Below are positions 12,955 through 29,433 of a DNA stretch of 64,000 nucleotides, piece after piece. Within the stretch, counting starts at the first letter, position 1. The number at the start of each line of letters is the position of its first letter. The stretch comes from Methyloferula stellata AR4 (lineage in GTDB: Bacteria; Pseudomonadota; Alphaproteobacteria; Rhizobiales; Beijerinckiaceae). The position numbers were made by a program, and so were the translations under genes. Below the pieces are notes generated by a model that was not told the origin of the DNA, made no database searches, and was given only the letters and a program-made list of their open reading frames with translations. The stretch spans positions 3,612,001-3,676,000 of the forward strand of contig NZ_ARWA01000001.1 of NCBI RefSeq assembly GCF_000385335.1, read 5' to 3'.

Positions 12955-12955
12955 C

Positions 12956-13393: not shown

Positions 13394-13396
13394 TCT

Positions 13397-14431
13397 ATGC
13401 CGCCCTCGCCCGTCTCCGTTCTTTATGTCGATGATGATCCGGGCTTGACCCGCCTGATCCAGAGGACGCTCGGCCGGCGTGGTTATAGCGTGGAAATCGC
13501 CTCTACAACGGAAGAAGGGCTCGAGCGGATCGCGAAAGGCGGCGTCGATGTCGTCGCGCTCGACCATTTTCTGCCGACCGGCACGGGTCTCGATTTTCTG
13601 GCGGCGATGCGCGGCCTCACTGCACTGCCCGCCGTCGTCTATGTCACGGGCACCGACGAAACGGCCGTGGCGATCGCAGCGCTCAAGGCCGGCGCTTCAG
13701 ATTATGTCTTAAAAACCGTCGGCGAAGAATTTTTCGAGCTTCTTGGAACCGCCATCGATCAGGCCGTCGAGAAGGTGCGCCTGGAACGCGAACGCGACCG
13801 CGCCTTGGAAGACATGCGGCAAGCACGCGACCGCGCCGAGATCCTGCTCAATGAAGTCAATCATCGCGTCGCTAACAGCCTCTCCCTGATTGCCGGACTC
13901 GTCCGGATGCAGGCGCGCACGCATGACGATCCATCCGTCAAATCCGCGTTGGAAGAAGTGCAATCGCGGATTTCCGCCATCGCCGGCGTGCATCGGCGCC
14001 TCTATACGTCGGAGGATGTCCGCTACGTCGAACTTTCGGGCTATCTTGGAAGCCTTCTCGAAGAATTGGGCGCGACGCTCAAGGCCACAGGACACGCCTC
14101 CAAGGTTCGGTTCACCGCCGATCCCATCACCGTCCAGACCGACAAAGCCATCTGGATCGGCATCGTCATTACGGAACTCGTCACAAACGCATTCAAATAT
14201 GCCTATCCCGAAATGGAGCCGGGCGAGATCCGCGTGCAGTTCCGCGAAGTGGGTCCGCGCCGCGTGCATCTGTCGGTCGAAGACGATGGGATCGGGTGGA
14301 AAGGCGAAGGCCCCGCGAAGGGTACGGGCCTCGGCAGCCGCATTGTGAGCACAACGGCGCGAAGCCTCGGCTCTTCCGTCGCCTATGAGGGCACGGGAGG
14401 CTGCCGCGTCAGCCTCGAATTCGAGCTGTAA
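13397..14431 (+). CDS. Response regulator/histidine kinase (receiver plus HisKA_2)
   Basis: Soluble two-domain signalling protein of 344 residues. The N-terminal receiver (residues ~5-120) has YVDDDPGLT and the phosphoacceptor in VVALDHFLPTGTG. A coiled linker leads to a HisKA_2 phosphoacceptor helix (LLNEVNHRVANSLSLI). The C-terminal HATPase has LVTNAFKYAYPEMEPG, VEDDGIGW and GTGLGSRIV. This architecture is common in Hyphomicrobiales and often feeds the general stress response or a phosphorelay. It is the last gene of the operon and is convergent with srfC, 29 nt away. Confidence 0.92.
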   Translation: MPPSPVSVLYVDDDPGLTRLIQRTLGRRGYSVEIASTTEEGLERIAKGGVDVVALDHFLPTGTGLDFLAAMRGLTALPAVVYVTGTDETAVAIAALKAGASDYVLKTVGEEFFELLGTAIDQAVEKVRLERERDRALEDMRQARDRAEILLNEVNHRVANSLSLIAGLVRMQARTHDDPSVKSALEEVQSRISAIAGVHRRLYTSEDVRYVELSGYLGSLLEELGATLKATGHASKVRFTADPITVQTDKAIWIGIVITELVTNAFKYAYPEMEPGEIRVQFREVGPRRVHLSVEDDGIGWKGEGPAKGTGLGSRIVSTTARSLGSSVAYEGTGGCRVSLEFEL

Positions 14432-14460: not shown

Positions 14461-17043
14461 TCACTCCGCCGCTGTGACAGACGCTCCCAGGCTCTGAATG
14501 ATCTGGCCAAGCAGAAAATTCTGTTCTGGATTATGCACGAGCCCATCGGCCGATTGGGCATTGGATTGCACATGCGCATAAAAGGTCCTGAGCCAGCGCA
14601 AGACGAAATCCTGCTGCACCGCCACGGGCTCCATGCCGATGCCGCTCGCATCATAGGCCACCGGCATTTCCGGCGGCTCCGCGCCGAGCGTGGCGACAAA
14701 GCGATTGATGTGGCGTTCAGCGACGATCGTTGCTTTGGCCGCGCCCTGCTCAGCCGTCTCGATATGAGAGATCGCATTGAGCGATGTGCAGATCGCGTCT
14801 TCGAGGCGCAGCCGGCGCGAGGTCGCGAGCACTTCGGTTGCAACCTCGCGCAAAGAGGTGCGTGAGACGCCGATTTCGCTCACGAAGAAACTATCCTCGA
14901 CCGTCTCGTGCAAGGACCGCGACCAGACCTGCAGCGCATGACGCGCCAGAATATCGCGGCGGTTGGGCCGCGGCGCGGGCGGCGGCGGGGGCGCGGAAGA
15001 CCGCCCCCCGGCACCGCCCTTTACAGCGTCGAGAATGCTGCTGCGCTTTTTCGGCGCCGCCTGTTCCAATTGTCCGGCATCTGCCTCTTCCGTCAGGCCG
15101 CGCGTGCGGGCTTCATAAAGCGCATCGGCGAGCCTTTCGCGATCGAGGCACATGCCGCGCAGGAACGTTCCGAATTTTTGCCGCTCTATACATTCTTCGA
15201 ATTCGGAGATCACCTGTTCCGCCATCGCCGTGCGCTCAGCTACGCGCTGCGCGGAATCGGTCGGAATGAAATAGGGGCTCAAGGCCTGCATGAGATGCGT
15301 GCGCAAGTCGCCAAGCCGCGCTTTGACCTGCGCCTGCTTCATACCCGGCTGACAGACGTGGGCGAGATTTTCGGCGAGATAGGAAATGCCACCGTCATTC
15401 AGCCGCATCACCTCGTCGAAAGCCCGCAACGGATCGCGGAAATGCGCATTGACCTCCGGCACTTTCGTATAGGCCTCGCGCAGCTCGGCGATGCGCGGGA
15501 CCTTTTGCGGCAGAACGCTCATTTCCGTGCGGCCGGAATAGCGGATGACGCCTTCGGCCTTATAATTGGGATTGCGGATCCAATAGCAATTCTTGAACGG
15601 CGCGTCGGGCGTCCATTTCAAGGGCCAGGCCGTCGGCACTTTCGCAAAAGGCTTCAACAGCGAGGCTTCAAGACGCGTCTGAAAGCGCAATCCCGGATCG
15701 GTGCCCTCGTCGCTGACCTTTTCCGACAAATGCTGATCGAACATGGTCATCAAGAAGAACAATAGCACCGGACGCCCGACGCGTTCTTCGGGCGTGCGTC
15801 CATGCGTGACGCCGATCCATTCCTCGATCACGCTCGGCAATGTCGTCACATCGAGATTGCTCGGCCGCAGGCAGAGCAGCATGCTCGTCAATTCCTGCTC
15901 CGCCGTATAGCGCTGAAAGAGATAATCGACCTTGCCACGCAGGAACAATTCTTTGAGCGCCGTGCCTTTGGCCTCGGCCAGGAATTTCGCAAGCCTATGT
16001 GGCGTGCGGTTGCGATAGCCGGGAAAATCGAGAAGGTCCGTATGTTCGAAGAAGGGCCAGGGGCTTTCCTTCAAGACCATTCGCAATTCGGCGGCAAGCG
16101 CGGTCAAGACCGGCCGCGGCAATTGCACCGTCGAATGATCCGGGCACATGATCGTCAGCTTGTCGGCATTGGGATCGTCGATACCAGCCAAAGTCTCGAC
16201 ATTCAAAATGCCATGCGTCGCCGGGATCAAGGCATCGAGCGGACAAAAGGCTTCTTCGGCGAAATCCATCTTTTCGAGCGCGCCGACAAGCGTCAGATAA
16301 AGTCCGGTCAAAGGCTCATGACGGCCCCAGAAGATCGAAAACAGTTCGGCACGCTCCCGCAGGCCGAGGCGCGGCGCGGCTTTGGCAACGCGATCCCAGA
16401 ACGGTGCGAAGACGCGGGTTTCCGTGCGCCTGATCTGGGTCAGAAAATATTCCTCTATATCCCAAATGTCTTCTTCGCGCAGCGTATCGACATAGGAGCC
16501 GGATAACCGCGTTTCGAATTTGGCGATATGCTGATCGATGTCTTCGGGTGAGAGGATCGTCTCGTCTTGAAGATCGGTGTCGAAGAAATAGGAGTTCGCG
16601 AGAATCTTGAAAATATCGGTCTGCGTCAAAAGCCGCAGCGCCACCGGATAGCCGGGCGGCGTCTGGGTTTTATGGATCGAAAAGCGCGTGACGAGACCGG
16701 TCGCTTCCTTGTCGCCATAAGGATTGATCTCCTTGATGAAGTCGATCTCCGGCCGCGCCGGATCGGCAAAGAGCGCCGTCAATGTCTCGCCTTTGCGAGC
16801 CAGCACGGAAACGAGGTAGGATTTGCCCGCTTGGCTCGGCCCGAACACGCCGATGCACATCGGGCGCTCGACGGAACGCGCCAGCCTCTTTGCCTGATAG
16901 GCGTGGTTGCGCAGATTGCGCTCGAGATAGGCGCGGTCCTGTCCGATGCGCGGATCGTTCTTCGGATCCGAGATCCAATCCAAAGCCTGTTGCGCCGCGA
17001 GCGCGGTAGATTCGCAAGCTTTGACGAGCGTGGCCTCGTTCAT
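14461..17043 (-). CDS. srfC: SrfC-like dynamin-type GTPase
   Basis: Large protein of 860 residues matching the putative virulence factor SrfC family. Walker A is GPSQAGKS (68-75); a G3-like HTDLLDFPGYRNR lies at 334-346; LLFFLMTMFDQ (~427-437) is in the position of a G4 element. The long insertion between Walker A and G3 and the helical C-terminal half resemble dynamin-like or membrane-associated GTPases. A short Pro-rich stretch (~695-705) separates the last helical domain. No signal peptide or TM is seen, so it is cytosolic or membrane-peripheral. A GGAG lies 9 nt before the start. It follows srfB by 16 nt, the order known from enterobacterial srfABC. Molecular function is unproven. Confidence 0.85.
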   Translation of the reverse strand: MNEATLVKACESTALAAQQALDWISDPKNDPRIGQDRAYLERNLRNHAYQAKRLARSVERPMCIGVFGPSQAGKSYLVSVLARKGETLTALFADPARPEIDFIKEINPYGDKEATGLVTRFSIHKTQTPPGYPVALRLLTQTDIFKILANSYFFDTDLQDETILSPEDIDQHIAKFETRLSGSYVDTLREEDIWDIEEYFLTQIRRTETRVFAPFWDRVAKAAPRLGLRERAELFSIFWGRHEPLTGLYLTLVGALEKMDFAEEAFCPLDALIPATHGILNVETLAGIDDPNADKLTIMCPDHSTVQLPRPVLTALAAELRMVLKESPWPFFEHTDLLDFPGYRNRTPHRLAKFLAEAKGTALKELFLRGKVDYLFQRYTAEQELTSMLLCLRPSNLDVTTLPSVIEEWIGVTHGRTPEERVGRPVLLFFLMTMFDQHLSEKVSDEGTDPGLRFQTRLEASLLKPFAKVPTAWPLKWTPDAPFKNCYWIRNPNYKAEGVIRYSGRTEMSVLPQKVPRIAELREAYTKVPEVNAHFRDPLRAFDEVMRLNDGGISYLAENLAHVCQPGMKQAQVKARLGDLRTHLMQALSPYFIPTDSAQRVAERTAMAEQVISEFEECIERQKFGTFLRGMCLDRERLADALYEARTRGLTEEADAGQLEQAAPKKRSSILDAVKGGAGGRSSAPPPPPAPRPNRRDILARHALQVWSRSLHETVEDSFFVSEIGVSRTSLREVATEVLATSRRLRLEDAICTSLNAISHIETAEQGAAKATIVAERHINRFVATLGAEPPEMPVAYDASGIGMEPVAVQQDFVLRWLRTFYAHVQSNAQSADGLVHNPEQNFLLGQIIQSLGASVTAAE

Positions 17044-17059
17044 GATCTTACACTCCGAT

Positions 17060-20000
17060 TCAGATGACGTTCAAAATTCCGCTATCGAGCCAATAGACTT
17101 CTTCATTTGCCAAAGTATCGAGAAAGAGCCCGAAGGAGCGCGTGACATTGGCGCCGTCCCGAGCGGTCGCCTCGACAATGCGTATTTCTTCCTTCTGCGC
17201 CTCGGCAGCCGAGAAATTGCGGTTGTCGTAATCGAGAAGCTCTTCCGGCAATTCGCGTTCGAGCACGATCGTCACCGGCTTTTGGATCGCCTGCAGCGAT
17301 GAACTGCCGACCGGCTTGATGCGATACATCGGGGTTGCGATCCAGCGCTCCAGCGGCAATTGCCGGAAACCGAGGGGCATGGGAGCGAACCAATCGACCT
17401 GCGCGGTTTGCGGCGTTTTCGTCGAGGCATTCGTCATATTGGAGAAAAGAACATTTTGCTCGCGCATCTTGCCGTCGCGCTCGAGCACCCCGATGAAATT
17501 GGCGGTCGAGCGCATCGTGATGCGATCGGCATAAAGCGTGAAATTGGTGATCTGCGCTTCCGCCAAGGCGCAGAGCATGCCGCCGACGACGGTGGCGGTT
17601 TTCGGATCTTCGATTCGAAACCGCGATTGTCCGCCGAACGGATACCAGTTGCCGGCCGGATAATTCGACAAAGGGATCACGCGGTCGGGCGACACCGCGA
17701 GCTTGTTGATGAAGAGATCGATGGTCGCAGGCAGCCGCGACGGCCGCCCTGAGAGAAGCACGATATCGCAATCGAAATGATGCACAGCTTCGGCGATATT
17801 CTCGAAGACCTCGCCAAGCGCACCTTCGACCGCCCCGCGGATGCGGTCGAAATCCAGCGTGACATCGACATTGGCCAGACGAAAATCCTTTGCGCCCCAG
17901 GACGCCGCGGTCTTATCGACATAGTCGATGATCCGCCCGCCAAGCGAGGCATTGATGAGGTCGGAGAGTTTACGCGTTTCCGGCAGGCTGCCCGCGGGGG
18001 CCTGTTCGTAGATCGAGAGCAGCGCGAGGCCCGCGGGCTTTAAAACCCGCAGCACGAATTGGCGACGGAAATGCTTGTCTTGCTGCGCCATATTCGCGCG
18101 ATCGGCACCGAAGCGGTCGACGAGAAATTCGCGCGCGGTGGCAAGGCCGCAAGCCCGCAAATGCTCGGCGATCGCAGGCAAGACGACTTGCTGGATCACT
18201 TCGCGCAACACATCCTCGCCGGCGATGCGAAAACCCTCACGGAAGGTCTGGCTCGGCACGATGGCGCGATTGGCCTCGGCATAATAAGTGGCGATCATCA
18301 GATCGGTCGTACCGCCGCCGACATCTATGCTGGCGATGCGGATCGACGGCTGTGGCGTGCCATGTGGGGGGCTCTGCGCCTCGGCATAAGCACGCGGCTT
18401 GCCGACAAGCTCCAAAAAGTCCGTGATGGCGCCGCCGAACTTATGCGCGATCTCGCTATAGAGATAGACGAATTGCGCGCAGCTAGCCTCGTCCCAGGCA
18501 GCATGAACTTCGGGAACCAGAACGCCCGGCGGTGGATTTTCCGCCCAGCCCATCAGATCCCAGACGAGTTTGACGCCCGCCTGCGCGCGGCTGCGCAATA
18601 ATCTTTGTTCGCGCACCGGCATCGCCGTCGGCAATGTGAAGATGATTCGGCGCAGGCGGCGCGGCGTGTCCTTCTCGCCGCGGCTGCCGCGCACTTGCGG
18701 GCTGTTGATGAGCGAAAGCGTCTGCATGAGAATTTCGGCGACGAGCAGCGTGAAAAACGACGAACGCGAGAAGGTGAGACGCACCGCCGGCTTTTCGAGT
18801 TCGGTGCGGTCGACCGCCGACGCCAAGCGATCGTAGAAACGCCGCTCGTCCAGAAGCTGACGCAAGACATCGCCGCGAAAATTCATGAAGCGCCGCGCGG
18901 CGAGATAGATCGTAGGCGGCGCGCCGTCGGCGCCATAGTCGCCCGGCTGAAACCGCCATTCCTGATTGACCGGCTCGACATCGCACAAATAGCGTTTCGG
19001 GCTCGACATGCCGCTCGTGCCTTCTGTCCCGTCGCCGCGCTCGCGATAGCGCGCCGCTTCCGGACCGACACGCACGAGGCTCGGCCAGAAGAAGGCGCGC
19101 GTGCGGCTCGACGCCCGCGACAGATGCTCCTTGCCGAATTGCGCCTGGACAAGCTGCACATCGCTTTCGAAAGGCTCTTTATAAAGCTGATGCGGTTCTT
19201 CGAGATCGCGCAATTGCAGAATGAACGAATTGCCGAGATCGATCTTCTGCTGGTTCGGAAAATTCTCGATCAGCATGCCGCATGTGCGGCTATTGCCTAT
19301 GTCGAGAACGAGATCCACATTGACCGGCTTGACCGTCGGCTCGCTCGACACCGTATCGATCAGTTTGATGCGCGGAACCGGGACAAAAGCATCGAGCAAT
19401 TGGATGAAGGCGACATAACGCGCCGCATGTTCGAGCGTCTCGCGATCTTCCGGCCGCAGCGCGCGGCCACCCCTTTGCGCGGTCTTGAAGGCGATGAAGA
19501 GTTCGTCCACCCAGCGGTCGACCCATTCCTGATAATCGATCTGATCGGCTCCGATCGTGCGCGGATCGGAGAGAAAGGCCGCGATGTCACGGAAGAGATA
19601 GGCAAGCGCGAATTCCTGTTCGGCGAAAGCATCCTGCGGGCTCGGAGCGACATAGGCCCGATTGGGCCGCCGCTCCAAAAGTTCCGTATCGAATGCGAAG
19701 ACGGCGCGATGCGTGGCGCCCGATTCTTGCGGCTGCTCGATCGGCGAGACGCGGACACGGCACCAATTGGTCGGGCCTTGATGGAAAAGATCGCGTCCCC
19801 ACGCATCGCGGCGCGGCTGAACGGCGAGGAAAGGCACAGGCACCCATTGCGAGAGAAAAGGCTCCAAGGCCTTTTGTTTCGAAAGATCGTAAGCGGCATC
19901 CGAGCCTTGGGCTTTGAATAGCGGCTCCGCGTCGAAATCGTCGTCGTTCCAGCCGGGACGCAATTCCACCGGATAGGTGCCGTCCGGTCCCATCTGCTCG

Positions 20001-20128
20001 ACTCTCTTATGTTCGATGAAGGGGCGCGAAAAGCGTGGTCCCTCGTCCAGATTGAACTCGAGAGCGAGAAACTGGATTCCGGAATGCGGAACGATTCGGA
20101 TAATCTCGGCGTTGGCACGGCTCGTCAT
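17060..20128 (-). CDS. srfB: SrfB-like actin/Hsp70-fold ATPase
   Basis: Protein of 1022 residues of the SrfB family. It carries the three nucleotide-binding signatures of the actin/Hsp70/FtsA superfamily: phosphate-1 VLDIGNSRTCGML (274-286), phosphate-2 IDVGGGTTDLMIA (601-613) and the adenosine motif VLLSGRPSRLP (790-800), with KTATVVGGML after it. About 270 residues precede the ATPase core and about 150 follow; both are mostly beta-rich and unassigned. No TM or signal peptide is present. AGAGG precedes the ATG by six nt. It lies 16 nt before srfC and 190 nt after the SrfA-like gene. ATP-driven conformational change or filament formation is a family-level expectation, not shown here. Confidence 0.87.
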   Translation of the reverse strand: MTSRANAEIIRIVPHSGIQFLALEFNLDEGPRFSRPFIEHKRVEQMGPDGTYPVELRPGWNDDDFDAEPLFKAQGSDAAYDLSKQKALEPFLSQWVPVPFLAVQPRRDAWGRDLFHQGPTNWCRVRVSPIEQPQESGATHRAVFAFDTELLERRPNRAYVAPSPQDAFAEQEFALAYLFRDIAAFLSDPRTIGADQIDYQEWVDRWVDELFIAFKTAQRGGRALRPEDRETLEHAARYVAFIQLLDAFVPVPRIKLIDTVSSEPTVKPVNVDLVLDIGNSRTCGMLIENFPNQQKIDLGNSFILQLRDLEEPHQLYKEPFESDVQLVQAQFGKEHLSRASSRTRAFFWPSLVRVGPEAARYRERGDGTEGTSGMSSPKRYLCDVEPVNQEWRFQPGDYGADGAPPTIYLAARRFMNFRGDVLRQLLDERRFYDRLASAVDRTELEKPAVRLTFSRSSFFTLLVAEILMQTLSLINSPQVRGSRGEKDTPRRLRRIIFTLPTAMPVREQRLLRSRAQAGVKLVWDLMGWAENPPPGVLVPEVHAAWDEASCAQFVYLYSEIAHKFGGAITDFLELVGKPRAYAEAQSPPHGTPQPSIRIASIDVGGGTTDLMIATYYAEANRAIVPSQTFREGFRIAGEDVLREVIQQVVLPAIAEHLRACGLATAREFLVDRFGADRANMAQQDKHFRRQFVLRVLKPAGLALLSIYEQAPAGSLPETRKLSDLINASLGGRIIDYVDKTAASWGAKDFRLANVDVTLDFDRIRGAVEGALGEVFENIAEAVHHFDCDIVLLSGRPSRLPATIDLFINKLAVSPDRVIPLSNYPAGNWYPFGGQSRFRIEDPKTATVVGGMLCALAEAQITNFTLYADRITMRSTANFIGVLERDGKMREQNVLFSNMTNASTKTPQTAQVDWFAPMPLGFRQLPLERWIATPMYRIKPVGSSSLQAIQKPVTIVLERELPEELLDYDNRNFSAAEAQKEEIRIVEATARDGANVTRSFGLFLDTLANEEVYWLDSGILNVI

Positions 20129-20318
20129 ATTTAGCCTCTTGCTCAGAGATAACTTGTCTGATCGGATCGTCGAGTCCTAAGACGCATAAGACCGATGGGC
20201 ATAAGTGTTAGGTCAGACCTTGAGGATGCCCTATTGGGACATGTCCGATCGCGAGATGCCGCTCCGCGCTCTTCATAGTCCCCATCGATCGCGCATGATG
20301 TTTGAAAAGTCACATTGC

Positions 20319-21659
20319 TCACCTATGAAAATTCACGACCTGCATCGGCGTTTTCGGCTGCTGAATTTGACCCTTATATTCGCGCTGGCCGGTCGGATCG
20401 CGAAGGATCACGTTGAACGGAATGTTGCGCGGCGGCAGTTCGTAGCGATCGAACAAGACGACTTCGACGCGATAATCGCCTGGGGGTGGATCGTCTTGCC
20501 AGCCGATATGTTCGACAGGATTGTCGATCGCCTCGCTTTTCTTCGAATTGCGATCGATATCCAGTATGCCGCCGCAGCCTGACCGGCTGCCGTAAAATAT
20601 ATGCCCATCGGCGCAAAAGACGTGAAGGTCGAGATCTTCGCGACCGTTCCAGACCAAGGTGATGTCGAATTTGCTCTCGTTCGACACATTCGCCTGCTGG
20701 ACCCGCTCCTCCGCGTCTTTGAGGCTTGGCGGATTGGTCTGCTGATTGTCCAGGAGGCTGTCTTTTTGCGCCGTGCAGGCCCCGCGATTTTGCGCGACTT
20801 GGAGTTCGGCAGCGGAGATCGCATCGCGCAACGACGCGTTTTTAATGCGCTCGGCGGCGAGATCCGCTTTCTCCGCATAGCGGCACTGATTGGAAAGGCT
20901 CGAGGCAAAGGGCAGATTCAATCCGCAGGCCGGAAGCAACGTATAATAGGCCAGCAAAACGAGGATGCCGAAAAGTGTCCATAAGAGCGCTGCCGGCCAA
21001 AGCGGGCCGCGCGGCTCGATGACGGCTGCAGCCACCGCACCCGTTGCGGCGGAAGAGGCTTCAATGCCGGGCCCCTCTGGTCCGGCCGATGCGCCCGGCG
21101 CGGCGCCGTCCGGCGGACCGCCGATCGGCCGGTTGCTCGAGCCGATGATTGAGGCGGCACCTCCGTCGCCGAGCAGGCTCGCATCAGAACGGCGTTTGAC
21201 GAAACGCTGAACGCCCGGCTGCGCGAGAATGTCAGTCGCACGTCCCCAAGCCGTCAACACAGGCTTGCCGTCGGCCGACCACACATGCGCCCTTTCATCG
21301 GGAACAGCGAGAATCGTGCGCAAGGCCGCGGCCAGACGCAGGTTCGGATCGCCGCCCTGCGCTTCCGTTTGCGCGGCAAATTGCAGGATTTCCTGGCGTC
21401 TTGCGTCGAGTCTTGCGAGCAATCTGTCTTGCTCGTCTTCGCTGAGCGCCGAGATCGGCTGCGGGTCATCCTGGGATGTAACGTGCCAATGGGTCTGACC
21501 CCGCAGGTCATCGTGGATGGGCTCGGCGAGAAGCCCCGCCGCCTCGGCTGACACGCCGCGTGCCAAAACCTCGGTCAACCGGTCCCAGCTCAGACCAGGC
21601 CCGAGTTCCGGCGGCGGCAGATCGCGATCATTGGTCGTGCAGACACGAACGCTATACAT
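20319..21659 (-). CDS. SrfA-like N-terminal domain, TM segment and YfaP/DUF2135-like C-terminal domain
   Basis: Protein of 446 residues, predicted single-pass inner-membrane. Residues ~25-150 resemble the cytosolic part of SrfA: THWHVTSQDDPQPISALS and HVWSADGKPVLTAWGRA. A Gly/Ala/Pro linker (160-215) is followed by TM ~222-242 (LLWTLFGILVLLAYYTLLPAC), then Cys-bearing and coiled residues (~258-325). The C-terminal ~115 residues start LVWNGREDLDLHVFCADG, a pattern of YfaP/DUF2135-like beta-sandwich domains, here expected in the periplasm. The TM-plus-coil part is recognisably related to the two small membrane proteins at 25911-27454. It starts 9 nt after the protease gene stops, so the two are translationally close. 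Confidence 0.75.
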   Translation of the reverse strand: MYSVRVCTTNDRDLPPPELGPGLSWDRLTEVLARGVSAEAAGLLAEPIHDDLRGQTHWHVTSQDDPQPISALSEDEQDRLLARLDARRQEILQFAAQTEAQGGDPNLRLAAALRTILAVPDERAHVWSADGKPVLTAWGRATDILAQPGVQRFVKRRSDASLLGDGGAASIIGSSNRPIGGPPDGAAPGASAGPEGPGIEASSAATGAVAAAVIEPRGPLWPAALLWTLFGILVLLAYYTLLPACGLNLPFASSLSNQCRYAEKADLAAERIKNASLRDAISAAELQVAQNRGACTAQKDSLLDNQQTNPPSLKDAEERVQQANVSNESKFDITLVWNGREDLDLHVFCADGHIFYGSRSGCGGILDIDRNSKKSEAIDNPVEHIGWQDDPPPGDYRVEVVLFDRYELPPRNIPFNVILRDPTGQREYKGQIQQPKTPMQVVNFHR

Positions 21660-21668
21660 GTCTCTCGC

Positions 21669-23510
21669 CTATTTCGGCGCTTGCGGCGGCGGCGCGACGG
21701 GCGGCGGCGGAATGGTCTGCGGCGCAACAGGCGGCGTCTGCGCGAGCGTAGGGCCGTTTGAGCAAGCGCTGTCATCGCTCTTGAAACTGATGTTGCGATC
21801 CTTGAGGAAGCTCCTCAGGATCGACGCATCCTGCGCGACGTTTGCTTGTTGCGGCCCATCCTCGGGACGTATGTCCCAGGAATTTATGCCGTCTAGGCGT
21901 CCGCAGGCATCGACGAGCGGACCGCCACTGTGACCCGGCGCCAATTGCATATCGTGCAGGATGATGGGAAGGGCATCCGAACCCGACCTGATGATATTGT
22001 TGACGCGTCCATAGCGCATGTCCGGACTTGGCATGGTGACGTCGGAAGACTTGCCGGCATTGGGGTCGTTCGGATTCTCCGACAGCTTGCGGACAAAATT
22101 ATCGAAGGCCACATCCTTTTCGGTGATGAAGCCCGGAAAGCCGGCAATATAGACCGTCGACAGTTTCGCAGGAGTGGTGCCGAGCGCAAGCGAGGTCCGG
22201 TTCGCAACAGGTTCGACTTCGAGAACCGCCAGATCGACATTGATCGAATTGTCTTCCTTTTTGGGCGCCGATGTCGCGACAAGCCGGGCGCGTTTGACGC
22301 CGCCAAGCGACCGGCTCGCGACGACGATTCCGCCGTCTTTGCTGTTTTCCACGACATGCCTATTGGTGACGATGTTGCGGTCGTTGATGAAAAAGCCCGT
22401 GCCTTGGGTGCCGCTATCCTCGGTCTTCGCCGCGAAGACCAGAACGGTCGCAGCATCGAGCAGGCTGGCGATCGTCGCGGAATCGGGAGTGCCTTTATTG
22501 GCTTGGCCCGGCAGAGGCACTTGGTCCGGCGGCCGCGGCAAAAGCTCCATCTTTGACGGTGGATCGCTTGGGCCCGTGCCCGGGACTTGCACGACCGGAT
22601 CGCCCGCTCGGCACACGCGTTCACCCGCAACCGTCTGCAGTGCCTTGAGCTGCGACTCCAACGACTCGTTGCTCGCGTGCAGTCTCTCAAATTCCAGCGC
22701 CTCGTGATCGACGGTGCTCTTGGAGGGGAATTTTAAAACGCCCGGCAAAAGCAAAATGATCAAACCGATGGCGGCGACCCCGCAAGCGATGAGAGGCGCG
22801 AGCCATGGCCCCGGCCGGCCCGCGGCGGCCTGGATCGGCGGCGGCAAGGGCGGCGGTGGCGGCGAGGACGCTCCCATGTGCGGCGCTGGATCTGTCACGG
22901 CGGGTTTCTCCGGAATGGGCGTGGGCGGCGGCGACAAGACTTTCGTTCTCTCATTGGAATCGGGCGGCGCTGAATCTTCCGCCACCGCATGCGCCTCTAC
23001 GGGCGGCAGGCTCAAACCCGGCGCGAAACGCCCAAGCGTGCGAGCGAAATGATCGTTGCGCGCCAGAGGCTCAGTCACGACGCCTGCCGGCAGAAAGCCC
23101 CAATCGACAAAAATCGGTTCGCCGCCGACCGAAATAATATCGGATGGGGCGGCGATGTTCAGCCAGGTTCCAAATGCCTCACCGATGCTGCGATCACGCA
23201 GCGCTGGCGAAAGCGCGTGAAGCCGCGCCGACAATTTTTCAGCGACCGGCCTGCGCGCGATCTCATCGATCGCATCGAGCGCGATGACCGCTCCTTCAAA
23301 GGCGCAATACCAGGATATCGTCGTCGCTATGCGCGCCCCGCCGCCCGGCAGAACGGGCTCGGCGAACAGCGACGCGGCATCGCGTCCGGCCAAAGCTTCG
23401 ACGCGATCAATCAGAGCGCGATAATGATTGACGGCCGGAGCTCCGCCAATCCGCGCCGGTTCGCGTCCAGAAATATCCGTGCTGCAAACGAAATGGCGAT
23501 TCTCGCGCAT
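21669..23510 (-). CDS. Membrane-anchored trypsin-like serine protease with SrfA-like N-terminal domain
   Basis: Protein of 613 residues. Residues ~30-145 look like the same SrfA N-terminal domain as the neighbour (TTISWYCAFEGAVIALDA; GGEPIFVDWGF). A Pro-rich linker (~190-225) precedes TM ~236-257, a short coil (EFERLHASNESLESQLKAL) and Cys300. Residues ~350-575 form a chymotrypsin-fold protease: His385 in VTNRHVVEN, Asp426 in NVDLAVLEV, Ser528 in GHSGGPLVD. The tail is Pro-rich. With the N-terminus in the cytosol the protease faces the periplasm. First gene of the minus-strand run protease, SrfA-like, srfB, srfC; two Pho-box-like sites lie upstream. Cutting a cluster partner is one possible role, but no substrate is evident. 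Confidence 0.8.
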   Translation of the reverse strand: MRENRHFVCSTDISGREPARIGGAPAVNHYRALIDRVEALAGRDAASLFAEPVLPGGGARIATTISWYCAFEGAVIALDAIDEIARRPVAEKLSARLHALSPALRDRSIGEAFGTWLNIAAPSDIISVGGEPIFVDWGFLPAGVVTEPLARNDHFARTLGRFAPGLSLPPVEAHAVAEDSAPPDSNERTKVLSPPPTPIPEKPAVTDPAPHMGASSPPPPPLPPPIQAAAGRPGPWLAPLIACGVAAIGLIILLLPGVLKFPSKSTVDHEALEFERLHASNESLESQLKALQTVAGERVCRAGDPVVQVPGTGPSDPPSKMELLPRPPDQVPLPGQANKGTPDSATIASLLDAATVLVFAAKTEDSGTQGTGFFINDRNIVTNRHVVENSKDGGIVVASRSLGGVKRARLVATSAPKKEDNSINVDLAVLEVEPVANRTSLALGTTPAKLSTVYIAGFPGFITEKDVAFDNFVRKLSENPNDPNAGKSSDVTMPSPDMRYGRVNNIIRSGSDALPIILHDMQLAPGHSGGPLVDACGRLDGINSWDIRPEDGPQQANVAQDASILRSFLKDRNISFKSDDSACSNGPTLAQTPPVAPQTIPPPPVAPPPQAPK

Positions 23511-23715
23511 GAATTTTCCGGCTACGTCGGCCGATCAAACGACGCTTCATGGTGCAATAGGTTTTACAATCGCAGTCTATAGACTCGATCCTGCGATGAC
23601 CAAGTGACTAAGTACACATCGCCTCTGATTGGCCGCGTTTTTCTTTCGCAAGATGAGGCACGAAGATCGCTTTGCGCGACCGAGAGTGCCGTCGCGAGAC
23701 GTTCAAGGATCTCAT

Positions 23716-23733
23716 ATGACAATTAGATGACGA
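23716..23733 (-). promoter_or_regulatory. Pho-box-like site 1
   Basis: On the plus strand ATGACAA-TTAG-ATGACGA; read on the minus strand this is TCGTCAT-CTAA-TTGTCAT. Two 7-mers 11 bp apart, matching the consensus CTGTCAT-4-CTGTCAT at 5/7 and 6/7 positions. It lies 206 nt upstream of the protease start and is oriented towards it. It also shares a 12-bp direct repeat (CATATGACAATT) with site 2. Confidence 0.45.
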
Positions 23734-23802
23734 TACCCTCGGACCAAGGCTTAGCGTAGGCTTACGGCCCTATTCGCCTTCGGTCCGCAGGGCCTAAGAC
23801 AT

Positions 23803-23820
23803 ATGACAATTTTATAACAA
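23803..23820 (-). promoter_or_regulatory. Pho-box-like site 2
   Basis: Plus strand ATGACAA-TTTT-ATAACAA; on the minus strand TTGTTAT-AAAA-TTGTCAT, again two 7-mers with a 4-bp spacer. It is 80 nt upstream of the plus-strand gene at 23901, in the same intergenic region as site 1. The 391-nt divergent region 23511-23900 also holds an imperfect inverted repeat (GGACCAAGGC at 23741, GCCTTCGGTCC at 23776). Confidence 0.45.
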
Positions 23821-23900
23821 TGGCTGAAAGCTCATCGTCGTGAGAGCGTGACAGCGGCCATCTAGTTATATATGCGACAGCGTTCGCTGGGAGATAAGAG

Positions 23901-25868
23901 ATGCGCTTGCGAGTGTTGGACGATCTTCGCCCAGGCTACGCTCAATTAGCATTCGACGGTCCACTGACCCAACCGACGCTTCATCTGTCGGTGCGCTCTC
24001 AGCAAGAAGGCGGCTTTCTGGGACCGGATGGTTCGTGGCAGAAATCGGCGCATTACTTCACGGCATCGCGCATCGAAGGCGATGACCGTTCGACAGTCTA
24101 TCGGGTCGGCCCGGAGATCGTGAATCATCTGCGCGAACTCGACACCGTCGAATTTGCAAATGACGACGGATCTTTGCGCTTCGAGACGACATGGGAAAAT
24201 GCCGTCCCGCAAATGCCCAAGATACCCGGCGGACGTCCGGGGCATTCGATCTACGGCGTGCAATCGCAGCCGTTGGAATCCCCGCAAGCGATTGCCACAC
24301 CCGAGCCCACATCGGGCGGGGATGCAGTCCCAGAGCAGCAATCGCAAGATTATTACGAGGCGGAACAAGAGGCCGAGCCAGGGCTTCAAACGTCCACGCC
24401 GCCGCCGCTGGATGAGGAAGCCACGACGTTGGAAACGCGCGCGGATACGCAGCGTTCGCGACAGGATCGAGACGATGGAACCGGCGGTGGCTCCGGGCGG
24501 CGCGGATTTCTTCTGCCTTTGCTCTTAGGTCTCATAGTCTTGGCCGGTGCCGGCTTTACCGCCTATAAATTCGTGCCTTGCGATTGGCTGCCCCAAGGCT
24601 ATTGCCCGGTCGACAAGAATGAGGTCGAGGCGCTGCAAAAAGCCAGGGTTTGCGCCTTTTACAAATCGCAAGGCGGGCTTGATTGCGATGTCGCCAAAGA
24701 TTGCGTCGAACCCTATATCACCGCCTATCCGAAAGGGCCGTCGCGGCCTGAGCTCGAGGCAAAAGCCAAAACGTCCAACGATGTCTGCAAACAAATGGTC
24801 GATGCGGCGCAAACCGCCTTCACCTGTATCGACGATTTGAAAAAGCGCGGGCGGTCGCGCTGCGACGTTCAGGTGGCCTGCACGCGGACGTTTCAGTCGC
24901 TTTATTCGATTGGCCCCATGCGCCGCAAAATCGACGATGCCGCGCAGCAGGCACAAGTCGATTGCGAATGCGAAAGCAAGCCCCTGTCCTGCGAAAATGG
25001 CTCACAGTCCGAACCCAAGCAACCCGAGGTCAATCCGAAAGATGCCGAGGAAGATAAGGCCTGGCAAGAGTCCAATCAATGTGCGCACGACAACGCCCGC
25101 AAATGCGCATCGCCCGGATGTTATGCGGATTATCTGAACACATTCGCGTCGGGCCTGCATAGGAGCGAAGCCCAAACCGACGCCGAGACCATCGCGAAGA
25201 GCTGCTCCAATGCCGATGAACAAGCGGCGCTGCAAGCAGCACGCGAATGCGCGCGCGGTCCAAGACGCTGCACCGCGCATTGCTATTCTTCCTATCTCTC
25301 CAAATATCGAACTTCGGACCAGAACGGCTCCGACGCGCAAAGCGAATCCGCGCAAATCGACAATGAATGCAAGAGCGCCCATGACGAGGACGATGCTTGG
25401 CTCGCCGCCAAACGATGCGCCGCCGCGGCGACGGCCTGCAATGTGGAGGCCTGCTATAGGGGTTCTTATTTGACGCGATATGGCGCGTCAGGATCGCACA
25501 GAGCCGATGCGGATGTCGAAATTTCGCGGGCGAAGATCGCCTGTCAAAAACTTTCGCAGCAGCAGACCGTTGTCGCGGAGGGAAAATATTGGGGCCGTTC
25601 GCTTGCCGCCTGCGGCGCCAAAACGGATTTCGGCATCAACGTCGAGGTGAAAGGCAACCGCATCAATTGGGAGCATGATTTCCTCGGCGTCAAATACCAA
25701 TGGGACGGCACCATCGACCCCTCCGGAAATGTCTTGGCGAAAGTCCAAAATACGCCCGGCGCCACGGCCACAGGCGTCATCTCCGAAGCCGAAAAGATCA
25801 TTCAGATGAAATATCCGCAATGCACGTCGGGCCCGGTGCAGCTCGAGATCCGGGGAAAGATGGAATAA
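23901..25868 (+). CDS. Single-pass membrane protein with five cysteine repeats
   Basis: Protein of 655 residues I cannot assign to a named family. Residues 1-~110 form a compact, beta-rich putative cytosolic domain (AQLAFDGPLTQPTLHLSVRS). An acidic, Pro/Gln-rich linker follows, then TM ~202-221 (FLLPLLLGLIVLAGAGF). The periplasmic part has five ~45-residue repeats (from Cys251, 309, 394, 450, 506) of the form C-x(6-11)-C-x(3-5)-C-Y-x-x-Y-L-x-x-Y...C. The last ~95 residues (KYWGRSLAACGAK to end) look like a separate lipocalin-like or beta domain. The Cys are evenly paired, suggesting disulfides. Divergent from the protease/srf run, convergent with the two small membrane proteins. Confidence 0.8.
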   Translation: MRLRVLDDLRPGYAQLAFDGPLTQPTLHLSVRSQQEGGFLGPDGSWQKSAHYFTASRIEGDDRSTVYRVGPEIVNHLRELDTVEFANDDGSLRFETTWENAVPQMPKIPGGRPGHSIYGVQSQPLESPQAIATPEPTSGGDAVPEQQSQDYYEAEQEAEPGLQTSTPPPLDEEATTLETRADTQRSRQDRDDGTGGGSGRRGFLLPLLLGLIVLAGAGFTAYKFVPCDWLPQGYCPVDKNEVEALQKARVCAFYKSQGGLDCDVAKDCVEPYITAYPKGPSRPELEAKAKTSNDVCKQMVDAAQTAFTCIDDLKKRGRSRCDVQVACTRTFQSLYSIGPMRRKIDDAAQQAQVDCECESKPLSCENGSQSEPKQPEVNPKDAEEDKAWQESNQCAHDNARKCASPGCYADYLNTFASGLHRSEAQTDAETIAKSCSNADEQAALQAARECARGPRRCTAHCYSSYLSKYRTSDQNGSDAQSESAQIDNECKSAHDEDDAWLAAKRCAAAATACNVEACYRGSYLTRYGASGSHRADADVEISRAKIACQKLSQQQTVVAEGKYWGRSLAACGAKTDFGINVEVKGNRINWEHDFLGVKYQWDGTIDPSGNVLAKVQNTPGATATGVISEAEKIIQMKYPQCTSGPVQLEIRGKME

Positions 25869-25910
25869 AAATGCAATAGAGCACCGGAGCCGAGGCCGGA
25901 ATCTCCCCGC

Positions 25911-26648
25911 TCAACCGTTCCAGCCGCAATATTCGTCGCTGACGTGCTTGAACTGCTCGGTGATCTTATCTCGAATCTCTCCCAGATTTTGTATTTCGCA
26001 TTCCGTCTGCTCGCTTTGGGAGTTGCCACACCTTATGTCGGCTGCGACATAAAATGGATGCCTGCGGCAGCTGGCCCTTTCATGGTGCATGAACAGCTGA
26101 CCCGGTAGGATACGGGCAAAGAGATCGGCGCGGCATGTGTCGCCGTCCGTGAAGCGCACTTGCACTTGACCCCGGCCGTTGCTCCGGAAACAAAAGCAAA
26201 TCCGCGCCTGGCCCAAAGGCTTTCGCTCCGCATCGTCCGACGCCATGTCAATATCGCCGTGCGCCGATTGCCAGCATCCTTTCAGATCCTCGATTTTCTT
26301 CGGAACTTCGAGGGTTTGCACCGGCGCGGGATTGGCGACGGGCAGCTTTGGATCGGGAACCTTCACCGGCAAGGGCTGCGGCTGCGGCTGTGGGAGCGGA
26401 ACGGGTTTGGGACAGGCCGGCAAAAGTGCGAAATGGATTTCGGCAGCGTGAATGCGCGATTGCAATTGCACCTCCCGCGCGCGTTCGGTCTCAAGCGCCG
26501 CCTTCGCCTCCGGCACCTGACAGGCGCTTGATCCAAACAGAGGGCGGATGCCCAAGTCACAAGCGTTCAGCGCGGCATAGGCGCCGATCGAGATCAAAAT
26601 CCCGAAGGCGCTCCAGAGAAAAATGTTGAGACCCCGGCGCATTCCCAT
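25911..26648 (-). CDS. SrfA C-terminal-domain membrane protein, copy 2
   Basis: Protein of 245 residues: a short N-terminus MGMRRGL, one TM (~8-28, IFLWSAFGILISIGAYAAL), then NACDLGIRPLFGSSACQ, a coil (AALETERAREVQLQSRI) and a Pro/Gln linker. The C-terminal ~120 residues (IEDLKGCWQSAHGDID ... ICFCFRSNGRGQVQVRF) are the domain I recognise from the end of enterobacterial SrfA proteins. Many Cys suggest an oxidising periplasmic location. The neighbouring gene upstream is a paralog of the same length, so this is a tandem duplication. A GGAGAG directly precedes the ATG. Confidence 0.78.
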   Translation of the reverse strand: MGMRRGLNIFLWSAFGILISIGAYAALNACDLGIRPLFGSSACQVPEAKAALETERAREVQLQSRIHAAEIHFALLPACPKPVPLPQPQPQPLPVKVPDPKLPVANPAPVQTLEVPKKIEDLKGCWQSAHGDIDMASDDAERKPLGQARICFCFRSNGRGQVQVRFTDGDTCRADLFARILPGQLFMHHERASCRRHPFYVAADIRCGNSQSEQTECEIQNLGEIRDKITEQFKHVSDEYCGWNG

Positions 26649-26716
26649 CTCTCCGGCACGTTTGGCCCAGCGGCAGTTTTATCGAAGCGCGATCGAAACT
26701 ACGGTCCTCGGCCTGC

Positions 26717-27454
26717 TCAGCCGTCCCAATTGCAATAATCATCCGTCACTCGGACGAATTGTTCCACTCGTCTTATGTAGGTTTTGCCGCGCGATATGAT
26801 TTCGCAGGTTGTCTTATCGGATTGATTGCCGCCACACGTAATATCATGCACGACGTAATCGCGATGTTTGCGGCAGGAAATCACGTCATGCCGCATGAAC
26901 ACCTGATCGGGCGAAATCCGGGCGACGAGTCTGGCCCGGCAAGCGGCACCGTCCGAATAGGAAATCTGCGCCACCCCTTCGCCATTGCTGCCAAAACAAT
27001 AACACAGCCGCGCCTTGCCGACCGGCAGATGCTGCGCGTCATCGGTCAGAATATCAATATCGCCGCGCGCCGACTGCCAGCATCCTTTCAGATCCTCGAG
27101 TTTCTTCGGAACTTCGAACGCTTGCTTAGGCTCCGGCTCGATCCGCAGCGGCGGATCTGGAATTTTCACCACCGGCAAGGGCTCGGGCTGAAGCGGCTGA
27201 GGCTTAGGACCAGGTTTAGGACAGGCTGGCAGAAGGGCTAAGCGGATTTCCTCGGCGTGAATGCGCGACTGCAATTGCGCTTCTTGCGCACGTTCGGATT
27301 CGAGAGCCACACTTGCCGCCCGCGCTTGACAGGCGTTCGAGGCAAAAAGCGAGCGGAGGCCGAGATCGCAAGCGTTCAGCGCGACATAAGCACCAAGCAG
27401 GATCATAATCCCGAAGGCGCTCCAAAGTAGAGCATTCAGCCCGAACCGACGCAT
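26717..27454 (-). CDS. SrfA C-terminal-domain membrane protein, copy 1
   Basis: Starting at ATG 27454 (MRRFGLNALLWSAFG) the product has 245 residues, the same length as its paralog 68 nt downstream. A longer frame from GTG 27496 adds 14 unsupported residues; GGAAGCAAAGAG before ATG 27454 favours the shorter form. The layout is identical: TM, NACDLGLRSLFASNACQ, a coil, a Pro-rich linker, then LEDLKGCWQSARGDIDILTD and CYCFGSNGEGVAQISY. The paralogs match closely in the TM-coil part and diverge more in the C-terminal domain. Predicted inner-membrane, periplasmic C-terminus. Confidence 0.78.
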   Translation of the reverse strand: MRRFGLNALLWSAFGIMILLGAYVALNACDLGLRSLFASNACQARAASVALESERAQEAQLQSRIHAEEIRLALLPACPKPGPKPQPLQPEPLPVVKIPDPPLRIEPEPKQAFEVPKKLEDLKGCWQSARGDIDILTDDAQHLPVGKARLCYCFGSNGEGVAQISYSDGAACRARLVARISPDQVFMRHDVISCRKHRDYVVHDITCGGNQSDKTTCEIISRGKTYIRRVEQFVRVTDDYCNWDG

Positions 27455-27647
27455 TCTCTTTGCTTCCGGCTGCAACAGCGCGCGATCGCAGATCACTTCA
27501 TCCAGATCACATCGCGTATATTAAATCGCGCGCGACATCAGCATAAGTCTTGCCTGCATATGAGTCGGTGACGCGCCTCACAGAAAAACAGCGCGAAGGC
27601 TGATATCTACGACCTCGTTGAACGTCGTCGGATGCGCGCGATGGCCT

Positions 27648-27676
27648 GTGTCATGTGATCGTCGTGCAATCGTCAT
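27648..27676 (+). promoter_or_regulatory. Pho-box-like site 3 (three half-sites)
   Basis: GTGTCAT-GTGA-TCGTCGT-GCAA-TCGTCAT: three 7-mers with 4-bp spacers, GTCAT/GTCGT/GTCAT repeating every 11 bp. It is oriented towards the phosphate-binding/OmpA gene, 128 nt upstream of its start. The rest of the 350-nt region 27455-27804 shows no other convincing element. Confidence 0.5.
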
Positions 27677-27804
27677 ATCCATTGCGGCTCGCAAAGCTGC
27701 CTTTGGGATTGACGGCTTGCGTGCTAATTTTTACAGGCGTCAACGCAGTGCCACTTCTTTCAAAGATAGTCTGGTTCGATTGATCACAAATCATTGGAGG
27801 AACG

Positions 27805-29433
27805 ATGGTCGGGTTCAAAAATCCCAAGAGCGCCCTGCTCGTTACGGCGATGGGGATTTGCTTCTTCCCGCAAATCGGCATGGCCCAGCAGCAAAGCATC
27901 TTTTGCTTGGAGGGCGGTGTTCAGATCGGCGTCGAGCGATTTGAAACGCGGGATAACAAGTTCTTTCTTTATGTGCCGGGCAGCAGTTCGCCGCTCGAAT
28001 ATCCGGCGAGCTCCGTCAAGGGCATAAATGTTCCATGCCAGGCAGCGGGATCGTCAAACACGCAAAACACCCAAAGCAACGCGTCTACGAGTTCGAATGA
28101 ATTCGGCGTTCAAGGTTCGAACACGATCGGCGAGCGCCTCATGCCCATGCTGATCGAAGCCTATGGCACGAAGAAGTTCGGGGTCAAACCGGCGAACAAA
28201 CTGATCGGCAACGAAGAAGAGCAGATCACCCTCAAGAACTCGTCGGGTGCGAGCACTGTGATCGATCTGCAGTCGCATGGCTCGGGCACGGCGACACCGG
28301 GATTGCTGGAAGGCAAAGCCATCATCGGCATGGCCTCACGCCGGTTGACGGCCGACGAGCAGAAGAAACTGAGCGATAAATATAACGTGAACATTCTTGC
28401 TCCGGGCAACGAACATGTTCTCGCTCTCGACGGCCTGGCGGTCATCGTCAACCCGACCAATTCGGTGAAGCAATTGTCGCTCGATCAGATCGCGCAAATC
28501 TTCTCGGGCGAGATCACCAATTGGCACGATGTCGGCGGCGCGGATCTGCCGATCAATGTGTACCGCCGCGATAATAAATCCGGCACCTTCGATACATTCA
28601 AGAGCCTGGTCCTGCAGCCGAGCGGCGGCACCAAGCGCGACATTTCTCCGCAAGCCAAACCGTTCGAGTCGAGCGAATCCTTGTCCGACGAAGTGGCGCA
28701 TGATCCGAAGGGCATTGGCTTCATCGGCCTGCCCTATATCGGCAAGAACAATGCGCTCTCGATTTCGTCTCCTTGCGGGATCGCAAGCAGCCCTTCGAAG
28801 TTCACGGTCAAGAACGAAGAATATCCGCTGGCACGGCGGCTTTATCTCTATACGCTTGGCGCACCGGCCAATCCGACAGCGCGCGAGCTTCTCGAATTCG
28901 CTCTGTCCGACGATGCGCAGGCAACCGTGACCGATGCCGAATTCGTCAATCAGGCGATCGATTTCGAAGATGACGACCTACAAAGCCGCTGGACGCAGGA
29001 TGTCCTCAACAATTCCTCACGGACGCTTGGATATGACAAGCCGATACCGGCGTCGGTTGCGAGTTCCTTCAGCCGCGCCATGGGTCAAACGCATCGCACG
29101 ACGATTGCATTCCGTTTCGAAAAGGGCAGCGCCCAGCTTGACAATCGCGCTCTGCAAGATGTCGCGAGACTGAGCCGCTACCTGGCTTCGCCCGCCATGT
29201 CCAACAAACGCTTCTACCTCATCGGCTTTGCCGATTCCTCCGGCGGCTGGGCGTCCAATCAGAATCTCGCCACGCAGCGTGCAGTGGCGGTGGGCCTCGA
29301 ATTGCAGAAGACGGGCCTTCGCGTGACGCGAGACAATATCTCGGCTTTCTCTTACCTGGCGCCGGTCGCCTGTAACGAGAGCGATGCCGGAGCTGCCAAG
29401 AACAGGCGCGTCGAAGTTTGGATCGAACGATAG
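27805..29433 (+). CDS. Phosphate-binding (PstS-like) protein fused to OmpA peptidoglycan-binding domain
   Basis: Exported protein of 542 residues. A signal peptide lies at ~1-27 (LLVTAMGICFFPQIGMAQ). A small N-terminal domain (~30-80) precedes a PstS-type substrate-binding domain (~98-385): GSNTIGERLMPML, HGSGTATPGLLEG, IFSGEITNWHDVGG, RRDNKSGTFDTFKSLV. The C-terminal ~110 residues are OmpA-like (AFRFEKGSAQLDNRALQD ... GFADSSGG ... NRRVEVWIER) and would anchor it to peptidoglycan. No PstABC permease genes are nearby, so sensing or scaffolding is more likely than transport. GGAGG precedes the ATG by 4 nt. A Pho-box-like triplet lies upstream. Confidence 0.88.
   Translation: MVGFKNPKSALLVTAMGICFFPQIGMAQQQSIFCLEGGVQIGVERFETRDNKFFLYVPGSSSPLEYPASSVKGINVPCQAAGSSNTQNTQSNASTSSNEFGVQGSNTIGERLMPMLIEAYGTKKFGVKPANKLIGNEEEQITLKNSSGASTVIDLQSHGSGTATPGLLEGKAIIGMASRRLTADEQKKLSDKYNVNILAPGNEHVLALDGLAVIVNPTNSVKQLSLDQIAQIFSGEITNWHDVGGADLPINVYRRDNKSGTFDTFKSLVLQPSGGTKRDISPQAKPFESSESLSDEVAHDPKGIGFIGLPYIGKNNALSISSPCGIASSPSKFTVKNEEYPLARRLYLYTLGAPANPTARELLEFALSDDAQATVTDAEFVNQAIDFEDDDLQSRWTQDVLNNSSRTLGYDKPIPASVASSFSRAMGQTHRTTIAFRFEKGSAQLDNRALQDVARLSRYLASPAMSNKRFYLIGFADSSGGWASNQNLATQRAVAVGLELQKTGLRVTRDNISAFSYLAPVACNESDAGAAKNRRVEVWIER

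Follow-up and report, generated by a model that had tools for sequence, protein, structure and literature searches.

What is the common function of SrfB, SrfC and the single-pass membrane proteins whose genes lie beside theirs in Methyloferula stellata AR4? Both SrfB and SrfC bear the annotation "virulence factor", with no settled function behind it. The locus occupies positions 14461 to 29433 of the window, as we call the whole stretch of 64,000 nucleotides of contig NZ_ARWA01000001.1 that was analysed, and contains the genes of SrfC, SrfB and six other proteins, here named p3 to p8. A first-pass annotation had described it as an expanded and hitherto undescribed cluster, and its eight open reading frames (ORFs) were all recovered at the coordinates given below. 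The reading that we favour, tentatively, is that SrfB, SrfC and the single-pass proteins, which comprise two adaptor types with variable tips, form an envelope-spanning machine whose tips control the remodelling of the inner membrane. It draws on the genes observed and their recurrence, on the relationship of four proteins to SrfA, and on sequence motifs and a cysteine bias over the loci, together with a predicted dynamin-like fold of SrfC, a predicted beta-sandwich tip of p3 and a predicted N-in/C-out topology.

Recurrence of the cluster in other genomes

SrfB is a rare protein: above the cut-off it was found in 8 of the 297 genomes sampled for the order, in 22 of 385 for the class and in 21 of 398 for the phylum. 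Up to 20 kb of sequence was taken around most of these carriers and around 80 named loci, the best 80 of 501, which leans the sample to window-like SrfB; hidden Markov models (HMMs) were built from proteins of the window and of the neighbouring genes. The SrfB genomes G651, G947, G900, G882 and G969 and three sub-cut-off matches of the order search lie outside this sample, the layout omits L036 and L037 (contigs below 4.5 kb) and the alignments omit rows with X. In all, 119 loci were mapped, the window among them, forming 97 clusters at 95% SrfB identity; the following counts refer to those with enough flanking sequence. The common long gene order is [Ac] - SrfA-N/protease - SrfA-N/Ac/beta-sandwich - SrfB - SrfC - Dn - vWA - ATP-binding cassette (ABC) ATPase - permease-like - SUMF1, where SrfA-N is the N-terminal domain of SrfA, Ac its C-terminal module and Dn a second adaptor domain. 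SrfC is present in 82 of 84 clusters, Dn in 70 of 84 and SrfA-N in 59 of 75. More than one SrfA-N protein (two or three) is encoded in 45/75 clusters, a protease in 38/75 and a lone Ac protein in 17/75. The vWA protein is encoded in 37 of 59 clusters, each time with the permease-like gene alongside, and SUMF1 is likewise found in 37/59. Of the 70 distinct loci, 66 gave a match to one or both of the bitopic adaptor types (exceptions L073, L074, L145 and L151), which bears out the proposal that the membrane proteins recur with SrfB and SrfC.

A search of the 297 genomes of the order with the SrfA-N profile, scoring up to 15 candidates per genome, matched seven of them, six SrfB carriers and a seventh that is marginal (E-value 9e-4); two of the eight SrfB carriers (G200 and G257) gave no SrfA-N match. 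Since SrfA-N is nearly confined to SrfB carriers, the domain looks dedicated to Srf.

Some loci depart from the common layout. The extreme of tip diversification is a Rhodoblastus locus (L089) with four Dn proteins and an extra Ac/beta-sandwich protein. Two loci of the order (L017 and L018) are minimal: they encode SrfB in a shorter form (875-913 aa), SrfC and a single Dn protein, which carries a Sel1 repeat; SrfA-N was not found there. SrfB occurs with no SrfC detected in the fetched stretch, on contigs some of which are short, in L138, L141, L145, L147, L151 and L163; five of these six come from Competibacteraceae or Gammaproteobacteria records, and the related L139 has SrfC 5 kb away.

Kinship of the membrane proteins with SrfA

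The proteins p3 (20319..21659, minus strand, 446 aa), p4 (21669..23510, minus strand, 613 aa), p6 (25911..26648, minus strand, 245 aa) and p7 (26717..27496, minus strand, 259 aa as listed, a later ATG being a possible start) each match part of the NCBIfam profile SrfA_fam (NF040486), a similarity overlooked in the first-pass annotation. The stretches of the profile that are matched are 31-139, 38-304, 223-426 and 213-422, respectively, and the aligned parts of p6 and p7 are residues 10-222 and 13-232. The scores are 40.3, 38.5, 52.3 and 44.8 bits, all partial and below the curated cut-off of 150; judged by these alignments, the four membrane proteins are relatives of SrfA and not members of the curated NF040486 subfamily. 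The profile ranges place the front of SrfA in p3 and p4, and its membrane helix and back in p6 and p7. On this sequence evidence, the front and the back of SrfA are split among separate genes bearing different tips (protease, beta-sandwich and Cys-rich).

In p3, the SrfA N-domain (25-140) is followed by a transmembrane (TM) helix (221-241), a long helix (265-308) and a putative beta-sandwich tip (331-446); this division combines the partial SrfA_fam match, the HMM architecture An-Ac-D21 and the predicted model, and the tip gives weak TerD-like matches. In p4, the SrfA N-domain and the TM helix precede a trypsin-like protease tip (PF13365, E-value 3e-20; partial SrfA_fam match; HMM architecture An-pr, with An at E-value 1e-20), in agreement with the protease proposed earlier. 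The motifs with the His, Asp and Ser of a trypsin-like protease start at positions 382, 425 and 526, and include H385, D426 and S528, which we take to be the catalytic residues. One TM helix and a trypsin-like domain with these motifs are features that p4 shares with DegS/HtrA; unlike them, p4 carries an SrfA-N domain ahead of the helix, and no PDZ domain was found in the Pfam scan, where Trypsin_2/Trypsin were the sole domains. The three SrfA-N seeds (p3, p4 and the protein at the SrfA position of L077) recovered the same 146 ORFs in 80 of the 119 loci.

The second adaptor type is represented by p5 (23901..25868, plus strand, 655 aa), composed of Dn, a TM helix and a Cys-rich, repeated C-terminal part with 26 Cys. 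The Dn HMM was found in 94 of the 119 loci; from three different seeds, between 92 and 97 Dn ORFs were recovered, spread over 89 to 94 loci. A TM helix followed by an Ac module makes up both p6 and p7. These two proteins are 61.4% identical and the Methylocapsa acidiphila locus has a single Ac protein of the p6/p7 type, so they look like a tandem duplication within the lineage of the window. No Pfam match was obtained for p3, p5, p6 and p7 up to an E-value of 0.1. The divergent genes of p4 and p5 are separated by 23511..23900 and those of p7 and p8 by 27497..27804; the gene coordinates make both gaps likely promoter regions.

Topology of the adaptors

A Kyte-Doolittle scan found one hydrophobic helix per membrane protein in all five, as the first-pass annotation had claimed (p3 224-242, p4 237-255, p5 203-221, p6 9-27 and p7 22-40), and no hydrophobic segment in SrfB and SrfC. 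Cysteines were counted in 141 of the 146 SrfA-N ORFs and in 93 of the 97 Dn ORFs. Per 100 aa, the SrfA-N proteins contain 0.28 Cys before the helix and 1.65 after it, and the Dn proteins 0.27 and 1.37. In the window, the numbers before and after the helix are 1/5 in p3, 0/26 in p5, 0/11 in p6 and 1/11 in p7. For four of the five proteins, this crowding of Cys behind the helix agrees with an N-terminal part in the reducing cytosol and a C-terminal part in the oxidising periplasm. Counted over 15 residues on each side of the helix, Lys and Arg number (before/after) 1/0 in p3, 3/1 in p5, 2/1 in p6 (8 residues before) and 4/1 in p7. An N-in/C-out topology is thus predicted for the membrane proteins; a periplasmic C-terminus of p4 would fit its kinship and its protease domain. 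The periplasmic C-termini proposed at the outset are in this way supported by the bias over the loci and in four window proteins, p4 being without it.

The NTPases SrfB and SrfC

SrfC (14461..17043, minus strand, 860 aa; PF10139, E-value 4e-222) and SrfB (17060..20128, minus strand, 1022 aa; PF07520, E-value 7e-270) are encoded by genes separated by 16 bp. Their scores of 740.4 and 898.8 bits, against curated cut-offs of 28.1 and 27.1, respectively, uphold the identity given to them from the sequence. SrfB displays motifs of the actin/Hsp70 type at 276-284, 602-609 and 794-798 (the phosphate-1, phosphate-2 and adenosine motifs D276-x-G-N, D602-x-GGGTTD and G794-R-P), which correspond to the three elements reported earlier and whose core residues are invariant in 14 of 14 aligned sequences. 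Compared by hhalign with an Hsp70-like frame of the same genome, SrfB reached 84% over 57 columns, the ABC control giving 0.5%.

SrfC contains a Walker A/G1 motif at 68-75 (GPSQAGKS in the window), Thr115, the G3 motif DFPG at 339-342 and a G4 motif at 433-436. The Walker A motif and the G3 element noted earlier within 334-346 are near-invariant among 60 sequences (K74 in 58, S75 in 56, D339 in 56, P341 in 60 and G342 in 56). At G4, T433 and D436 are each conserved in 58 sequences and K434 in 42, the window having TMFD vs TKxD. Several near relatives (L088, L090-L093 and L109) share with the SrfC of the window the loss of this lysine, which may alter the nucleotide preference. The structure model of SrfC (predicted local distance difference test 89.5, predicted template modelling score 0.88) has as its best fold matches dynamin-family GTPases (mitofusin, BDLP and SynDLP), with a GTPase domain and a helical trunk, and on this model SrfC is predicted to be a dynamin-like GTPase. 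The likeness to the bacterial dynamin-like proteins (BDLP, SynDLP, IniA, LeoA and the 5owv pair) and to the mitofusins concerns the predicted fold and the P-loop G1, DxPG G3 and TxxD G4 motifs. SrfC differs from these proteins in that profile-level similarity was not seen, a membrane segment of its own was not found and its gene is linked to those of SrfB and bitopic adaptors. A sequence search against solved structures returned one chance-level match each for SrfB and SrfC. The open-access literature, preprints and most subscription papers being outside its coverage, yielded no paper linking SrfC to dynamin; the four papers in which both terms occur seem, from their titles, to concern other matters.

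A reduced variant of the cluster

Many relatives of the window carry, after Dn, the ABC ATPase, a four-TM permease-like protein, the SUMF1-like protein and the vWA protein, a relay resembling TagRST of TagQRST/PpkA, the threonine-phosphorylation pathway of the H1 type VI secretion apparatus. In the genome of the window (G000), the vWA profile had no match and the permease profile a partial one (E-value 5e-9, 132 of 398 positions). The vWA profile was also unmatched in M. acidiphila, a Rhodoblastus metagenome-assembled genome (MAG), Methylobacterium Leaf125, Rhizobium C4, Sinorhizobium terangae and the MAG of L111, where permease matches were partial (E-value 5e-10 or weaker); three relay carriers included in the search gave 4e-88 or better for both profiles. 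The sheath gene TssC (PF05943) was not found in the genome of the window, an E. coli control being positive. Among 32 hand-picked genomes, some of them drafts, TssC occurs in 16 of 26 with the relay vs 1 of 6 without it (Fisher p 0.076, kinship ignored). A general dependence on the type VI system was rejected; 10 of these 26 relay genomes have no TssC. The genome of the window is thus unlike the TagQRST/PpkA system: the relay is absent, a kinase was not seen and the sheath gene was not found.

In a quick SrfB tree of 80 rows (LG+G4), the state of the relay changes at least 8 times and the window lies inside a group of 12 that includes carriers. The tree itself is blind to gain vs loss; repeated loss is likelier, as the same gene order occurs in genomes outside the class (L077, L081 and L084). 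The expansion assumed by the first-pass annotation was rejected, the relatives holding more genes and the relay-less loci being nested among carriers. With both the relay and the sheath gene missing, the cluster of the window is a reduced variant. The window has the block p8-Ac-p5-p4-p3-SrfB-SrfC in common with M. acidiphila, and the ORFs surrounding this block gave no match between the two. Identities are 66% for SrfB, 62% for SrfC, 56% for p8, 43% for p4, 36% for p3, 36% for p6/p7 and 29-30% for p5, so the tips diverge more than the NTPases. The nearest named SrfB relatives, among the best 80 of 501, belong to Methylocapsa, Rhodoblastus and Methylobacterium. A relay-less variant with several tips, its SrfB nearest to that of Methylocapsa and kin, points to SrfB, SrfC and at least one adaptor as the core and to the other parts as exchangeable inputs.

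Relation to described srf loci

Hap is a serine protease. PMC3608642 (2013) reports that in host-associated Deltaproteobacteria, of which just one has the type VI machinery, srfABC is accompanied by a Hap-like gene, tagQ, ppkA, ligA and, in most cases, tagRST. The kind of cluster was therefore known, against the first impression that it had not been described, and the novelty here is the variant and its mechanistic reading. The window shares with that neighbourhood srfABC, the Hap-like gene and further envelope genes; it differs by its doubled Ac proteins and the adjacent PstS-OmpA gene, and its genome is without the relay, whereas the neighbourhood has tagQ, a gene annotated as ppkA and usually tagRST.

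Common to the window and the srfABC operon of Salmonella, Xenorhabdus and other enterobacteria are the two families SrfB and SrfC, a tight gene order and an SrfA relative immediately upstream. Nine loci of the family f242, presumably enteric, have this plain three-gene form, with one SrfA protein and no Dn; the tenth (L084) has two SrfA proteins, Dn and the relay. In the window, by contrast, four genes share out the SrfA parts, the tips being of the protease, beta-sandwich and Cys-rich kinds, and a Dn protein is added. The rickettsial SrfB/SrfC, secreted effectors of different sizes (PMC11258249), were treated as namesakes.

Proposed mechanism and alternative explanations

In the machine that we favour, the conserved N-domains (SrfA-N and Dn) would dock on SrfB/SrfC, and the protease, beta-sandwich and Cys-rich tips would sense or process envelope damage. 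The membrane helix would transmit the signal of the tip to SrfB, whose ATPase cycle might load or release a SrfC assembly on the inner membrane. The vWA/ABC/SUMF1 relay of 37/59 relatives would add a further signal; in the window the tandem Ac proteins, perhaps with PstS-OmpA, may replace this missing input. A more specific form of the proposal is possible but doubtful: SrfABC would be a transmembrane-gated bacterial dynamin system in which exchangeable tips in the periplasm (a protease, a metal-binding-like module and a disulfide-repeat module) act as the switch of an actin/Hsp70-like ATPase, and this ATPase in turn loads a mitofusin-like GTPase, so that the inner membrane is repaired or remodelled at the very sites of envelope damage. 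Should SrfC prove to be a dynamin-like GTPase that SrfA-type adaptors keep at the membrane, the label "virulence factor" would mislead and SrfABC would gain a role testable by GTPase, liposome and localisation assays.

Several results weigh against the machine. SrfB carriers are scarce (8/297 in the order), and SrfA-N was not found in 16/75 clusters, Dn in 14/84 and neither in 4/70 loci. The Foldseek matches of SrfC to SynDLP/BDLP have template modelling scores of 0.20-0.26 at 9-13% identity, hmmscan gave no Dynamin_N (PF00350) match, and hhalign with dynamin reached 8.6%, over the P-loop only, vs 89.9% for the ABC control (a weak test, with three dynamin-like frames); moreover, the SrfC of the window has Met in place of the G4 lysine. 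The Hsp70 support of SrfB is at motif level (the 57 columns), hhalign with DnaK of the same genome giving 12.4%, and the Pfam scan has no HSP70 match. Profile comparison as a route to SrfC-dynamin and SrfB-Hsp70 kinship was weak. Finally, p4 has no Cys bias (2 in the 236 aa before the helix, 3 in the 358 after) and, unlike the other four, more Lys/Arg after its helix (2) than before (1).

The main rival, which we consider rather unlikely, is a signalling switch of the TagQRST/PpkA kind: a signal of a surface or of contact would pass from periplasmic sensors to SrfB/SrfC, and these would steer a cytosolic output (motility, secretion or a change of the cell surface) with no membrane remodelling. 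The vWA and permease-like genes do occur together in 37/37 relay loci, with SUMF1 in 37/59 clusters, and the distribution of TssC, with the reservations given above, leans the same way. TagQRST acts upstream of PpkA in P. aeruginosa (PMC6657622), and Salmonella srfB/srfC mutants are impaired in swarming, not in swimming (PMC4219756). However, the genome of the window keeps SrfBC and adaptors though relay and TssC were not found, 10/26 relay genomes are without TssC, no kinase domain was found in the single vWA protein scanned (L012), and such a switch would leave the predicted dynamin fold of SrfC unused. A second alternative is a cell-defence or conflict system, in which membrane sensors detect phage or competitor damage and the dynamin-like GTPase and the protease seal or sacrifice the cell. 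Bacterial dynamins have protective roles, the distribution of SrfB is sporadic in order, class and phylum, and the block is kept while the flanking genes differ between the window and M. acidiphila. PADLOC relates the protease domain of p4 to RT-Protease_XI (E-value 2e-12) and others, and the OmpA part of p8 to ZorB (1e-7), but it gave no match for SrfB, SrfC, p3, p5, p6 and p7. Among the ORFs at 9-36 kb of the window, where no dedicated search was made, no defence genes were seen by eye, and the nine f242 loci retain plain srfABC; we hold a defence role to be improbable.

Very improbable, in our judgement, is a secreted or injected tripartite toxin, as proposed for Xenorhabdus, where SrfA, SrfB and SrfC are reported to form a heteromeric complex and to be cytotoxic to HeLa and insect cells (PMC6950479). 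Against export of this kind stand the absence of a hydrophobic segment in SrfB and SrfC, the bitopic nature of the SrfA relatives with rear parts that are Cys-rich over the loci, and the absence of a type VI sheath gene from the genome of the window, the one export route searched. Moreover, the nearest named SrfB relatives, from Methylocapsa, Rhodoblastus and Methylobacterium, do not to our knowledge belong to pathogens.

The PstS-OmpA protein and neighbouring genes

The last gene of the locus encodes p8 (27805..29433, plus strand, 542 aa), a secreted protein with a PBP_like_2 domain of the PstS type (PF12849, E-value 5e-27) and an OmpA domain (PF00691, 6e-12), as the first-pass annotation had proposed. 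Ten others of the 297 genomes, nine of them without SrfB, contain strong relatives (4e-54 or better, one divided between two contigs), and six places with such a relative and no SrfB gave no match to eight other HMMs of the srf cluster. PstS-OmpA as a core part is therefore not supported by its distribution. The two genes do share a cluster in both genomes of the order sample that have SrfB and PstS-OmpA (G000 and G200), as well as in M. acidiphila. PstS-OmpA is mostly independent of Srf; its adjacency in the window is suggestive, and it is an uncertain member of the system. In three of the six p8-relative loci viewed (L222, L223 and L227), PstS-OmpA is preceded by another secreted-looking protein of 271-285 aa.

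The flanks of the locus were characterised from translations only. Genes for a sensor kinase, a response regulator and a second receiver/kinase protein (window 11425-14431, plus strand) converge on the end of srfC. On the other side, PstS-OmpA is adjoined by a gene for a methyl-accepting chemotaxis protein with two PAS-like repeats (29630-31429, minus strand).

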